Source: Rossellomorea aquimaris TF-12 (lineage in GTDB: Bacteria > Bacillota > Bacilli > Bacillales > Bacillaceae_B). From it: a stretch of 64,000 nucleotides of DNA. Each line of letters begins with the position of its first letter. The stretch's first letter is position 1. Below are positions 16,281-28,541 of this stretch, in pieces. Below the pieces are notes generated by a model. That model worked only from the letters and a program-made list of their open reading frames with translations, made no database searches and was not told where the DNA came from. The DNA lies in contig NZ_LQXM01000023.1 of the NCBI RefSeq assembly GCF_001648555.1, positions 1-64,000 on the forward strand, given 5' to 3'. Position numbers and translations under genes: made by a program.

Positions 16281-17246
16281 TTATGTAACACGCCCTCTAC
16301 TATACGTAGTACCTTTTAACGTACCACTTGAAAGTAAATTAGATGATTTAAGTATTTTAGTTGCTATTTTTTGAGATTCCAAATTAAGAAACCACCGCAG
16401 ATCACGATTAGTGTGTTTATTATCGATTAGCAGTAAATAGTCTTCAATCGCATCCTGATCTGAAAAAGATGAGCATTTACTACAAAACCAAGAGGAGCTC
16501 ACTCTTTGGAGTGGTATAAAGTTGCATTTTTTGCACTGAACACCTCTAAGAATAGCCTCCTTTGGGATATTTAACTTTTCTAGAAAATTATATTCTTGTG
16601 AAGAATGATTTTTTAGAATAGCACGTTTTATTTTGGCTATATCTATATCAGAAACCATTTTACTTGAAAATTGACTATTCAAATCCATTATTCGATCAAT
16701 CAAATTTTGGGAATGTATTATTTTTAAATAAGATGAAAGGGGCTTAGGAAGGGTTGTATATTCAAGAATAGTTGCAGGGTTACTAATAACTACTAGAAAG
16801 TCAATCGGAGGGGCCTTTAATTTATTCACAAGAAACCATTTTTGGAGAAGAAGCTTTTGTCTTGTAACTTGAGAAACAGGGTCTATAAAGCCCTCTGTCT
16901 TATCATTATAGATTCTTGTACATTGCCTGATTTGGGGATCAATTCTCATTATCCCAGTAAGATTCTTAACCTCGATGATAAGTGCATAATGGGGAGTCAC
17001 AACGAGAGTGTCTATTTGAAAGTAATGAGGATTTAACGGAAGTCTAATATCGTGGAAAATCATGTATTTCTTATCATTCAAAAAACTCAAATGATAATCT
17101 ACCCTTTTTTCACCATAATAACCTGCTTTTCTTTTCTTTAAATCAGCTTCGATTAAAGGTACTTTCTCATAATTAGGAGGTAATCTTCTTAGAGCGGCTT
17201 CGTTCTGCATAATTCTTAAAGGTACTTCTCTTTTTTTGTATATCAA
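16281..17246 (-). CDS. NERD-domain (nuclease-related) protein with zinc ribbon, copy A
   Basis: 321 aa. The NERD domain (about residues 40-150) has a PD-(D/E)xK-like triad: Asp79 in FQIDTLVV and Glu92/Lys94 in LIIEVKN. A four-cysteine zinc ribbon follows at residues 238, 241, 255 and 258, then a helical C-terminus. The TTG at 17246 is the start because AGGAGTG lies 5 nt upstream and the protein then aligns with copy B (27381-28355) from its first residues. Substrate and role are unknown; nuclease activity is a family-based inference. A 20-bp tandem array lies upstream. Confidence 0.85.
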   Translation of the reverse strand: MIYKKREVPLRIMQNEAALRRLPPNYEKVPLIEADLKKRKAGYYGEKRVDYHLSFLNDKKYMIFHDIRLPLNPHYFQIDTLVVTPHYALIIEVKNLTGIMRIDPQIRQCTRIYNDKTEGFIDPVSQVTRQKLLLQKWFLVNKLKAPPIDFLVVISNPATILEYTTLPKPLSSYLKIIHSQNLIDRIMDLNSQFSSKMVSDIDIAKIKRAILKNHSSQEYNFLEKLNIPKEAILRGVQCKKCNFIPLQRVSSSWFCSKCSSFSDQDAIEDYLLLIDNKHTNRDLRWFLNLESQKIATKILKSSNLLSSGTLKGTTYSRGRVT

Positions 17247-17357
17247 TTTATCACTCCTATGTAAATTGGTATATATTAATTTCGACAATAAAAGTACATT
17301 TCCTGTTTGATTATGTAGAATTCCAATATTTTTTTGCCGGAGTGATTTTTATAATAT

Positions 17358-17478
17358 ATAGGCCATTTTTGAAGTTTACAAGCCATTATGAGAATTTATA
17401 GGCCGTTTTAAATATTAATGAGCCATTTTAAAATTTTATAAGCCAATTACCTACTTTTATACGCCAATTTACATTATT
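17358..17478 (-). repeat. Tandem array, six units of 20-21 bp, upstream of NERD gene A
   Basis: Six units with GCC cores at 17362, 17382, 17402, 17422, 17442 and 17463 (steps 20, 20, 20, 20, 21). On the NERD coding strand the core is approximately AAATGGCYTAT separated by AT-rich variable stretches. The array lies 112-232 bp upstream of the NERD start and just after the cshA terminator. A similar array with another core precedes NERD gene B. Confidence 0.85.
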
Positions 17479-17539: not shown

Positions 17540-19075
17540 TTAAGATTGTGAAGAAGAGTTGTAAGACTTGCGTCGGTTAGACGATTGAGGTCTGCCTCCG
17601 CCGCCGCTACGGTTACGGTCTCCGCCACGGCTTGCGCCGCCTCCGCGATTTCCGCCGCCGCGGCTGCTTCCACCGCGACTTCCGCCTTTACCACTGCGTG
17701 CTCCACCTTTGTATCCACCGCCGCGATTTCCGCCGCCACGATTTCCACCTCTTGATGGTAGAGGACGTTCTTCTGTGATTTCAACTGGAGTTGTATCTGG
17801 CTCTTTTGTTAATACGCGAATAGCTGCTGCTACTGCTTGAACCGGATCATGATCTCCTAGGAATTCTTCTGCTAATTGATAGTAATCTTTAAGATCACTT
17901 TCTTTAGCCGCTTCAGCTAATTTTTCAAGAGCTAAGCGTTGTTGACCTTCAAGGGCTTCGTTTAAGCTAGGTGGCTTAAGAGCCGTCATTTTCTTCTTCG
18001 TTGTTTGTTCAACGATTTTCAGGTAACCCATTTCTCTTGGTGTTACAAAAGTGATGGACATACCCTTCTTACCTGCACGACCTGTACGTCCGATACGGTG
18101 AACGTAGCTTTCTGGGTCTTGAGGAATGTCAAAGTTGTATACATGCGTTACGCCTGAGATATCTAAACCACGAGCAGCAACGTCTGTTGCGATAAGAATA
18201 TCGATACGGCCTTCTTTGAACTTTTTCAGAACTGTCATACGACGAGCTTGAGAAAGATCTCCGTGAATTCCTTCTGCCAGGTAGCCGCGGATACTAAGTG
18301 CTCTAGCTAGTTCGTCTACTCTACGCTTTGTACGACCGAATACAATCGCTAGTTCAGGTGATTGTACGTCGATTAAACGTGAAAGAACATCGAATTTTTC
18401 TTTTTCGCTTACTTTAGTGAAGTATTGTTCAATGTTTGAAACCGTTACTTCTTTTGATTTTACTTTGATTACTTCTGGCTCTGTCATGAAACGGTTCGCA
18501 ATGCGACGAATCGGGTCAGGCATTGTTGCAGAGAATAGAAGTGTTTGTCTTGTGCTTGGAACAGTCTCAAGAATGCTTTCGATGTCTTCGATGAAGCCCA
18601 TGTTTAGCATTTCATCTGCTTCGTCAAGTACAAGTGTTTGAACGTTTTCAAGGTTCAGTGTTTTACGTTTGATATGGTCTAGTAAACGACCTGGTGTACC
18701 AACGATGATATGAGGGTTCTTTTTCATAGCACGGATTTGGCGTTGAATGTCCTGTCCGCCGTATACAGATAGCACGCGTGCACGCTTATCTGATCCAATG
18801 CGATATAATTCTTCTGATACTTGAATTGCAAGCTCACGAGTTGGTGCAATAACAAGCGCTTGAACATTTCCGTTCTTAACGTCGATTTTCTCGATCATTG
18901 GAATACCAAATGCTGTTGTTTTACCTGTTCCAGTTTGTGCTTGACCGATAATATCTTTACCTTCTAAACCGACTGGAATCGTACTTGCCTGAATTGGTGT
19001 TGCTTCTTCAAAGCCCATACGTTTGATTGATTTCAACGTAGATGCGCTTAAGTTTAAATCTGCAAACTTAGTCAA
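17540..19075 (-). CDS. cshA: DEAD-box ATP-dependent RNA helicase CshA
   Basis: 511 aa. The helicase motifs are in order: Q motif ([11 protein letters not shown]), motif I AQTGTGKT, Ia [29 protein letters not shown] and [11 protein letters not shown] dimerisation region follows, then a basic Gly/Arg/Ser-rich tail from about residue 440 that should bind RNA. CshA works with the RNA degradosome and in ribosome biogenesis, especially in the cold. The TTG at 19075 is the start because AAGGAG lies 9 nt before it and the protein then matches family members. No other start fits. Confidence 0.96.
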
Positions 19076-27380: not shown

Positions 27381-28355
27381 TTATTGTATCAGTTTAGGAG
27401 CGAGATAATATATCCTTCCTCTATTATCTCCTTCAGATTCTATTTTGAGAGAGCTTAAGATATCAACCGCCGTTCTTCTCGAATGAAGATGGAGATAAGA
27501 ACGTAATTTTTTTTTTGTTATTTCAGGAGAAACTAAATAATAATAGTCTTCTAACGCTCTAATGTGGGCATCTTTGGAATAAGTACTACAAGTACTGCAT
27601 TTCCACTTCCCACGCATTCTAATCATCGGAATCAATAAACATTCTGGGCATTGTACACCTGTGACAATATCATGAGTTGAAATATTGTAAGTTTTTTCGG
27701 GTGAAGGCTTGTATTGGACATTACTTTTCAACAATTGCTTTGTCATTTTATTCATAATCTTTTGGGATACTAACTCTTTTTTATTCGATGTAACTTCAAT
27801 GATTTTAGACATTACATCTTCTAAATGAATAACTTTAGAAAGTTCCCTTTTATTAGGGTTTGTTGTTCTAATGATGGTAGAGGGGTTACTTATCACTACG
27901 AGGTAATCTATGGGGAGAGAAGGAATGTTATACATCGTTAACCAATCTCTTAGTTGTCGCTGGTGTCTTTTAGCTTGAGATAAAGGATTTGAAAAACCCT
28001 CTTCCTGGTTGTTGATTTTTCGTGTGTACTGGTTAAACTCATTAAAAAAAGTCACTGTTCCAGCAATACTTTTAACTTCAATAATCAATATACAAAAAGG
28101 TGTTAATAATAAAGTGTCTATTTGAAAATAATAATCTCTTAAAGGTAATCGAAGATCATGGAACACTCTTACATTTTTATTGTGTGTCAAACTTTCTAAA
28201 TGATAATCAAGTTGCTGTTCTCCTTTATATCCAGCAAACCGCTTACGTAAATCCTCTTCAATTTTATATCTCATGGGATGATTATTAGACAGTCTATTTA
28301 ACAACGCTTCATTCATGAGAATTCTAGGGGGAATTCCTCTTTCTTTTATTAACAA
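27381..28355 (-). CDS. NERD-domain (nuclease-related) protein with zinc ribbon, copy B
   Basis: 324 aa and clearly paralogous to 16281-17246 over its whole length. The putative catalytic residues are Asp80 in FQIDTLLLTP and Glu93/Lys95 in LIIEVKS. The four zinc-ribbon cysteines are at 236, 239, 253 and 256. The TTG at 28355 has AAGGAGTGG upstream, the same start type as copy A. It is convergent with the flavoprotein gene at 26287 and separated from it by only 5 bp. A 21-bp tandem array lies about 105 bp upstream. Confidence 0.85.
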   Translation of the reverse strand: MLIKERGIPPRILMNEALLNRLSNNHPMRYKIEEDLRKRFAGYKGEQQLDYHLESLTHNKNVRVFHDLRLPLRDYYFQIDTLLLTPFCILIIEVKSIAGTVTFFNEFNQYTRKINNQEEGFSNPLSQAKRHQRQLRDWLTMYNIPSLPIDYLVVISNPSTIIRTTNPNKRELSKVIHLEDVMSKIIEVTSNKKELVSQKIMNKMTKQLLKSNVQYKPSPEKTYNISTHDIVTGVQCPECLLIPMIRMRGKWKCSTCSTYSKDAHIRALEDYYYLVSPEITKKKLRSYLHLHSRRTAVDILSSLKIESEGDNRGRIYYLAPKLIQ

Positions 28356-28458
28356 ATGACCACTCCTTTGAATTTTTTTACTTCTTTCTCTATTTTATAT
28401 ATAAATTCCTGCTATTTTAGACAAAAATATTCGATTGAGTTGGTACTGTGTTTTGAAG

Positions 28459-28541
28459 AATGTGCGATTTTTGAGGGGAAATGTGCGAAATTCCAAGAGA
28501 AATGTGCGAAATCAGCTCATAAATGTGCAAAATTGTGAACG
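28459..28541 (-). repeat. Tandem array, four units of 21 bp, upstream of NERD gene B
   Basis: TGTGC cores begin at 28461, 28482, 28503 and 28524, exactly 21 bp apart. On the NERD coding strand the core is about ATTTCGCACATTT with roughly 9 variable bases between cores. It sits 104-186 bp before the NERD start and just after the terminator of the upstream flavoprotein gene, in the same relative place as the array before copy A. Confidence 0.85.

Follow-up and report, generated by a model that had tools for sequence, protein, structure and literature searches.

NERD proteins of a Bacillales family probably bind arrays of short direct repeats that carry their own core, both at the promoter of their own gene and genome-wide, and protein and arrays would then form a linked pair whose specificity shifts with time. 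The part of this reading that we trust most, recognition of the array by the protein's own winged helix, is well supported by comparison of cores and protein sequences. A part played by the nuclease domain in spreading the arrays or keeping them uniform is the boldest element.

Two NERD genes and their arrays in the window

The window, a stretch of 64,000 nucleotides of Rossellomorea aquimaris TF-12, holds two NERD genes, A and B, which lie 11 kb apart and encode proteins that are 40% identical. Their features are the following.

27381..28355, minus strand: NERD gene B, TTG start, 324 aa, with NERD domain, zinc ribbon and winged helix in N-to-C order
27888..28235, minus strand: NERD domain of B, residues 41-156 (Pfam PF08378)
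27588..27650, minus strand: zinc ribbon of B (C236, C239, C253 and C256, invariant in 64/64 aligned relatives)
27402..27572, minus strand: winged helix of B, residues about 262-318, from the predicted structure
27450..27479, minus strand: recognition helix of B, residues 293-302, in which D298 tracks the array core best
28385..28410, minus strand: sigma-H-like promoter of B, AGGAATTT...GAGAAA, 55 bp before the start (relaxed match, GAAA for GAAT)
28460..28530, minus strand: array B, four units with the coding-strand core TCGCACAT at a pitch of 21 bp
28531..28540, minus strand: array leader GTTCACAATT, also present at many dispersed TCGCACAT and GTGGCCCAAT arrays
16281..17246, minus strand: NERD gene A, TTG start at 17246
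17280..17304, minus strand: sigma-H-like promoter of A, AGGAAATGTACTTTTATTGTCGAAA (relaxed match)
17338..17470, minus strand: array A, 6-7 units with the core TGGCYTAT at a pitch of 20-21 bp, mostly 20

An earlier note on this DNA had described gene B as starting with TTG behind four units exactly 21 bp apart that end 104 bp before the start, and array A as ending 112 bp before its own gene. These coordinates were confirmed. The motif TGTGC recurs at 28461, 28482, 28503 and 28524, in exact 21-bp steps, the core nearest gene B stops 104 bp before the start codon, which is preceded by a ribosome site, and array A ends about 112 bp before the TTG of gene A. In array B the unit most distant from the gene deviates and reads TTGCACAT on the coding strand. 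The pattern of neighbouring units in array B had two matches in the window and none in 100 shuffles, and the array scored 35.5, with 21.6 as the highest score among 12 dinucleotide shuffles. Scanning the window in 450-base frames for scores above 35 returned A and B as the only intergenic arrays, B barely passing at 35.5; a third region, 17593-17775, was discarded as the repetitive 3' end of the neighbouring helicase gene. DNA folding gave z values against shuffles of 0.95 for array B, 1.42 for array A, -1.17 for an array of the type found at L006, another NERD locus of this genome, and -2.46 for one GTGGCCCAAT array, which 2 of 200 shuffles equalled. Three of these four arrays folded no better than shuffled sequence, and the array units are direct repeats.

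The gene B protein matched the Pfam NERD family PF08378 with E 2.3e-23 (83.3 bits, above the curated cut-off of 22.1). NERD was its sole Pfam family at E 0.01, and 64/64 aligned members matched the same profile at E 0.01 or better. E46, D80 and K95 are invariant in all 64 aligned relatives of B, and E93 is present in at least 90% of them; we take these four residues to be a PD-(D/E)XK nuclease site and predict activity from it. The structure prediction for B was confident (pLDDT 94.7, pTM 0.90). Its NERD part aligned to Can2, McrC and restriction enzymes at a middling Z of about 6-8, about 7-8 for Can2 and McrC, and its C-terminal part to the winged-helix DNA-binding proteins AntR, CadC and RbkR at a likewise middling Z of about 6, the model placing a helix-turn-helix at helices 281-288 and 293-302 and a short strand at 315-317. 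Pfam held no family matching the winged helix of B, and a few family members gave weak Pfam zinc-ribbon matches. Foldseek alone returned no match to the model below E 5e-3, and a search by sequence of solved structures for relatives of B returned none that was convincing (best E 0.11).

Array cores, recognition helices and promoters across the NERD family

A protein search found seven NERD genes in this genome (G000 among our handles, which use G for genomes, C for contigs and L for loci), six of them 35-43% identical to B. Each of the seven has a 20/21-bp array upstream, at about -30 to -240, and each core is different. On the coding strand the cores are:

B: TCGCACAT
L002: ACGGATAAA
A: TGGCYTAT
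L004: TTGATAATAA
L005: TCGCAAATA
L006: TGGCAGATA
L007: GGCTCGATT

All seven arrays beat the best of 12 shuffles, with the smallest margins at L004 (28.3 versus 19.0) and L005 (24.8 versus 20.0). The shared core T-S-G-C-n-n-A-T that the earlier note had derived from A and B also fits L006 but does not extend to the paralogs with ACGGATAAA, TTGATAATAA, TCGCAAATA and GGCTCGATT. The assembly comprises 30 contigs and 4.04 Mb, and is 99.92% complete with 9.56% contamination. Two of its stretches, C2:50500-57500 and C14:5500-12500, are identical over nearly 7 kb, so the array there was counted as one place; with the contamination figure, this duplication seems to reflect duplicated or mixed-strain sequence in the assembly.

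The survey was extended to 176 loci: the seven of this genome, the best 80 of 333 relatives, and 29 plus 60 from the list of matches in genus genomes. Seven of these were the same sequence twice, leaving 169 distinct loci. An array was accepted at a score above 27 that also exceeded 10 shuffles. By this test 151/176 loci passed, or 144/169 distinct loci, and 25/169 were without a passing array; arrays missing from most genomes, an outcome that the earlier note had named as refuting its idea, were not what we found. On windows away from the gene the same test was passed by 20/173 and 20/176, a false-positive level in which the duplicate loci are included and passes can be coding repeats or dispersed arrays. 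The best period among 13-30 was 21 in 106/169 loci and 20 in 31/169, and spacings within arrays were 20 (401) or 21 (390), the only two values that the model permitted. Arrays end at a median of 97 bp before the gene start, and script-chosen start codons are TTG at 93/169 distinct loci. Spacers vary freely between units, as does the number of units.

Among the matches listed, a NERD match at E 1e-20 occurred in 35/36 genus genomes, several with broken copies. Many NERD copies of the genus are broken or truncated, some being reduced to the zinc-ribbon and winged-helix half, and these many broken copies point to a family with fast birth and death. Fifteen of 20 broken copies examined retain the N-terminus, and 14 of those 15 have a clear array. 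The five C-terminal fragments include one (L286) with a clear array and three others that pass or approach the shuffles with G-rich periods, which we took for coding repeats. NERD genes in genus genomes are often paired about 10 kb apart; the A/B pairing in G004 and G020 is conserved synteny.

The earlier note had proposed comparing array cores with NERD proteins over many genomes, and this comparison revealed co-variation, also at fixed NERD-domain identity. From 147 usable loci, removal of proteins at least 85% identical left 122, with no duplicate loci. Core similarity correlated with recognition-helix identity at r 0.32 and with NERD-domain identity at 0.28 (122 proteins), and the partial correlation of core with recognition helix given the NERD domain was 0.24. 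At NERD identities of 0.42-0.50, mean core similarity was -0.08, -0.02, 0.05, 0.20 and 0.41 with rising identity of helix and wing, the last bin holding only 4 pairs. Restricting the comparison to NERD identities below 0.45 and helix identities of at least 0.6 left 121 pairs, whose core similarity had a permutation p of 0.0005. The best single-column predictor of the core was residue 298 (D298 in B), with r 0.199 against a maximum of 0.188 in 200 permutations; columns 313, 312, 292 and 293 were also near the top. M1, W138 and P243 were likewise among the top columns, though outside the winged helix, and the correlations are small. At one similarity cut-off the 122 proteins fell into 42 core clusters. 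Examples of matched helices and cores are:

helix SPSLATRL: core TCGATAATA
helix SPYVAKRL: core TTCGCCGWTA
helix SSHVAKRL: core TTCGCTGATA
helix SRNTAYKL: core GACGCAAT
helix SRKIAYKI: core GTGGCCCAAT
helix SSYTATRL: core TATCCGCACATA
helix SPKVIHRL: core TGGCAGATA
helix SRSTALDI: core ATCCTGCAAAA
helix SRRTAVDI (NERD B): core TTCGCACAT

That cores track the recognition helix beyond overall protein relatedness is well supported by these comparisons. So is the suggestion, made earlier from A and B, that each gene recognises or is controlled by its own repeat, since arrays accompany most distinct loci and their cores follow the recognition helix. Active avoidance of similar cores within a genome was considered and rejected: 2/89 within-genome pairs exceeded a similarity of 0.6 against 117/2189 between genomes, and at matched NERD identity the figures (1.25% of 80 within, 2.6% of 1843 between) showed no clear difference. 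NERD B belongs to a Bacillales family whose proteins combine a zinc ribbon and a winged helix with the NERD nuclease-like domain, and it is well supported that each of them reads a core of 8-10 bp through its winged helix. Repetition of this core every 20-21 bp, or two helical turns, would let several protomers align on one face of the DNA.

Between array and gene, AGGAWW followed by GAAT was found at 53/168 distinct loci under strict matching and at 75/168 under relaxed matching, against 2/168 and 4/168 in a control region and a shuffling expectation of 0.3 for the strict motif. The distance from AGGA to GAAT was 21 or 22 in 53/53 strict matches, 20-22 being allowed, and the motif lies at a median of 58 bp before the gene start. 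The scan employed the spacing that separates the -35 and -10 elements of sigma-H promoters; at this consensus spacing 53/175 loci matched, and at a different element spacing 1/176. An excerpt of a published account quotes the sigma-H elements as RNAGGAWWW and RNNGAATWW (PMC8510167). We infer that sigma-H transcribes these NERD genes. Because the array stands just upstream of the gene's sigma-H-type promoter, its position suggests autoregulation, in which the NERD protein would control its own synthesis, acting probably as a repressor or gate when cells pass into stationary phase or sporulation.

Dispersed arrays

Allowing up to three mismatches, the array B pattern had 65 matches in this genome against 5 for the reversed control. 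Leaving aside gene B's own array, these TCGCACAT matches group into 13 distinct dispersed arrays (14 if the duplicated contig is counted), and a few isolated 3-mismatch matches lie outside them. Across 36 genus genomes the stricter B pattern TTCGCACATT had 59 matches here, 3 in G005, 1 in G008 and none in the other 33; these and all per-genome counts below include the gene's own array where present. The core GTGGCCCAAT had 66 matches in G020, 45 here, 33 in G004, 2 in G023, 1 each in G008, G019 and G024, and none in 29 genomes. Of the loci surveyed, those of G004 and G020 included genes with this core; none was found in this genome, yet GTGGCCCAAT arrays are present, and 10/13 dispersed TCGCACAT arrays lie within 100 bp of one. 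The A-type core had 13 matches in this genome, 4 of them in gene A's own array. Such scattered arrays, in a genome that carries the gene of the same core, offer the NERD protein many further candidate target sites.

Other cores were compared genome by genome with the presence of their cognate gene. TTCGCYGWTA reached at least 10 matches in 10 of 12 genomes with the gene and in 0 of 23 without it, none of which exceeded 3; the cognate gene of G002 (L120) was assigned from an adjoining core match, and G006, with 19 matches and a broken copy (L288) whose similar array is partly readable, was set aside. G023 and G024 have the cognate gene and 3 TTCGC-type matches each, no more than their own arrays could give. 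For TATCCGCACATA, a core from outside the genus, dispersed arrays occurred in 4/4 genomes with the cognate gene and in 0/10 without. The core AATGGCAGATA had 11, 15 and 16 matches in the three genomes with its gene, and also 14 in G020, 7 in G035 and 5 in G029; in G020 and G035 no gene of that core was seen. Neutral tandem repeats, arising by slippage and linked to NERD genes by accident, would account for the freely differing spacers and the varying number of units. We find this explanation hardly credible, given the position and pitch of the arrays, the covariation of core with helix and the genome-by-genome match with the cognate gene; in its simple form it is refuted by the covariation at fixed identity, the gene match of TATCCGCACATA and the control windows.

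GGTYGATAAA had 47 matches in G035, 42 in G004, 40 in G006, 25 in G020, 22 in G021, 14 each in G002 and G029, and 10 in G001. An intact cognate gene was seen only in G020, and broken copies in G006, G035 and G025. G030 carries a GACGCAAT array at a site described below (site 1) and has no NERD match at E 1e-20 among the matches listed. On the strength of these GGTYGATAAA arrays without an intact gene and of the G030 array, arrays seem to persist after loss of their NERD gene. The match counts had made faster decay of the GTGGCCCAAT arrays here plausible, and mismatches per unit disagreed: the mean was 0.98 here versus 1.04 and 0.99 in G004 and G020, scored only on chains with at most 3 mismatches per unit. 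That GTGGCCCAAT arrays are no more decayed here, where no gene of that core was found, than in genomes with the gene points to a recent loss, another reader protein or a role independent of NERD.

The dispersed arrays lie outside called genes, apart from short ORFs. They stand between larger called ORFs, and the distance to the nearest called ORF ranges from a slight overlap to about 670 bp; the short ORFs that several of them overlap, of 70-130 codons, are probably spurious. Many are downstream of genes or between converging genes, and those inspected showed no fixed relation to gene starts. This arrangement bears on another interpretation, namely that NERD proteins are ordinary regulators with tandem operators at their own promoter, the dispersed arrays being their regulon and the nuclease domain serving only to oligomerise. 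Arrays whose distance to the sigma-H-type promoter downstream is fairly constant, and a winged helix with tandem sites on one DNA face, suit such a role. We nevertheless judge it unlikely. Besides the placement of so many arrays behind genes, the strict sigma-H motif was absent within about 150 bp at 59/60 dispersed-array entries (present at 0/13, 1/16, 0/20 and 0/11), in a scan for the sigma-H type only and a count that enters ten places of this genome for both core types. Invariance of E46, D80 and K95 in 64/64 relatives would also be unexpected were catalysis unimportant.

The arrays might instead be chromosome-architecture sites, comparable to parS and RacA sites, where a nucleoid protein of sigma-H time is stationed and orientation matters. 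The sigma-H-type promoter of NERD genes agrees with this, as does a bias of GTGGCCCAAT arrays to the G-rich strand at 16/20 places in G020 and 9/11 in G004. These two genomes share most of their sites, so the bias is not independent, and no clear strand bias was seen in this genome (10/16 and 8/13). A change of core between species of one genus would also be unexpected for housekeeping sites, and we hold an architectural role to be quite improbable. Orientation by replication strand, suggestive in two species and absent here, was not retained as a property of the arrays.

The leader TTCACAAT accompanied 9/13, 10/16, 13/20 and 7/11 TCGCACAT or GTGGCCCAAT arrays and only 9/151 NERD-gene arrays (7/144 distinct); it was therefore rejected as a universal array leader and is type-specific. 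Composite GTGGCCCAAT and TCGCACAT arrays stand just downstream of 5S rRNA genes on C13 and at the end of C29 (L188, L200). L190 and L191, at contig ends, are homologous to them, the four places being 82-91% alike over 440-865 bp. An element, GAGGGACGGACCT, adjoins several arrays (L192, L195 and L197 in G000). In L192 and L197 it is a palindrome, and it has the look of a dispersed repeat in its own right. An ORF near one dispersed array (L196:4997-5515) encodes a long run of RRSTRRSS-like repeats.

Core changes at fixed loci and relation to known systems

The B locus is flanked by an NAD(P)-oxidoreductase-like gene and a flavoprotein gene, and also holds a NERD gene in G004, G020, G002 and G022. 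Identity to B is 46% for the NERD protein of G004 and 43% for that of G020, against 65-98% for most neighbour proteins. The core at this locus is TCGCACAT here, GTGGCCCAAT in G004 and G020, GTGGCACAA in G002 and TTACGCAAT in G022. Since the leader GTTCACAATT is found at many TCGCACAT and GTGGCCCAAT arrays and few others, its distribution suggests that the B-locus lineage swapped its core and kept its leader. Among 16 loci of relatives with the neighbours of gene A, 12 carry GACGCAAT or GACGCATAAA; the core of A in this genome is TGGCYTAT. At the L006 locus, where flanks are 77-82% identical, three species have TGGCAGATA and G020 has GGTYGATAAA; dispersed arrays of the two types are both present in G020. 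The cassette proposed by the earlier note holds to the extent that gene and array stay together at one locus, as at the B and L006 loci; it does not cover the arrays that recur elsewhere.

Two sites of dispersed arrays were also followed across relatives. Site 1, which follows a 942-codon gene, was located in 34 relatives; 20 of them were newly read, with GTGGCACAA-like arrays in 4, GACGCAAT arrays in 5 and none there in 11; of those scored as none, G018 has a weak match farther on and G006 an apparent decayed array by eye. The same site carries GTGGCCCAAT in G004 and G020, and TCGCACAT beside GTGGCCCAAT in this genome. Site 2 was found in 35 relatives and read in 20; it has an array in this genome and in 0/20 relatives, five of which gave weak matches 580-770 bp away, probably in the next gene. 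Comparison of this genome with the 20 relatives at site 2 gave no clean insertion boundary, and movement of an array was not caught. Most of 12 relatives have in common an intergenic stretch, CGTATTTCCGGGGAAATG...TGTCGAA, behind the motB-like gene of this site (L265-L284); this genome is without it, and the array stands at that place. Of the dispersed GTGGCCCAAT arrays examined in G004, 10/11 share at least one flank with an array place in G020, and at these shared places the cores are kept and the spacers differ.

These comparisons suggest that protein and arrays are linked as a pair and that the specificity of this pair shifts with time. The gene would stay at its locus while its recognition helix and own array change; dispersed arrays with the new core would arise, often beside old ones, and the old ones would linger. 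Arrays would probably be seeded or kept uniform through the nuclease domain, by nicking and copying or by gene conversion, and the whole would work as RAYT-REPIN does with different chemistry. A further tentative proposal, which we consider possible and somewhat doubtful, is that winged-helix specificity evolves in NERD nucleases which seed arrays of their own target and maintain them, so that past specificities are left as layers in the genome.

The nuclease-like domain with its conserved active-site residues, the sharing of the NERD domain with the defence proteins PglW and MAD6, and the fast divergence and many broken copies of the family could also suggest defence, the arrays marking self or restraining a nuclease that attacks unmarked DNA. 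The earlier note had raised such a self/non-self system, and our searches lent it no support. With tblastn, NERD relatives numbered 0 among 50,697 phage records and 3 weak matches among 72,556 plasmids. NCBIfam matches fell below cut-off (MAD6 42.1 bits versus 460, PglW 16.1 versus 990), and a PADLOC match to PglW (E 8.4e-6) was sub-threshold and covered a short NERD-containing stretch. The loci tested retain conserved neighbours across species and are not in islands, and arrays are kept in genomes after their gene is broken or gone. We consider defence very improbable. Plain regulon, architecture and defence roles all rank below a partnership of each NERD protein with its own arrays.

The closest known relationship is that of RAYT genes and REPs or REPINs. 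According to the portions consulted of three papers, RAYT genes are single-copy, vertically inherited and of several types per genome, each type being linked to its own family of short extragenic repeats that is commoner where the gene is present, and REPs often exceed 100 copies (PMC3116915, PMC8049555, PMC2817692). NERD genes, too, are linked to a repeat family dispersed in the same genome. Their enzyme differs, being a NERD nuclease-like protein with a winged helix instead of a tyrosine transposase; no tyrosine transposase was among the Pfam matches of the B protein at E 1, and the HUH/Y1 feature is thus lacking. Their repeats are 20/21-bp direct arrays, not palindromic hairpins. As two defining features of RAYT-REPIN are absent, we set the NERD-array pairing apart from it. 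Further differences are a sigma-H-type promoter between array and gene, and tens of arrays, with no movement seen, in place of REPs that often number more than 100.

The NERD domain of the B family is shared with PglW, MAD6 and SmdA; unlike these, the family was found to have no kinase, helicase or membrane part, and it has a zinc ribbon, a winged helix and cognate arrays. Iteron-Rep and parS-ParB systems also pair direct repeats, each about two helical turns long, with a cognate binding protein encoded alongside. NERD loci differ in being no replicon or partition locus, and in having many chromosomal arrays and many paralogous specificities per genome. PRDM9 is a DNA-binding protein tied to nuclease action, with fast-changing specificity and several generations of target sites per genome; the likeness is an analogy only, the NERD system being bacterial, with a winged helix, and with arrays instead of eroding single sites. 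To our knowledge no other known kind fits the NERD-array pairing. It is new as a system, its parts (NERD domain, winged helix and tandem sites) being already known; the portions of open-licence PubMed Central papers searched, PMC12802215 among them, held no description of NERD genes with arrays, and one may exist elsewhere.

If this reading is true, the NERD-array pairing would be a second, unrelated solution to the task of RAYT and REPIN, built on a nuclease and arrays set by the helical turn, and it would account for one class of intergenic repeats in Bacillaceae genomes. The pairing would double as a natural experiment on how protein-DNA specificity changes, offering matched helix-core pairs by the dozen, several genes in each genome, and specificity switches at fixed loci where old target sites are still present. 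The same data would then amount to a natural recognition code linking helix to core.
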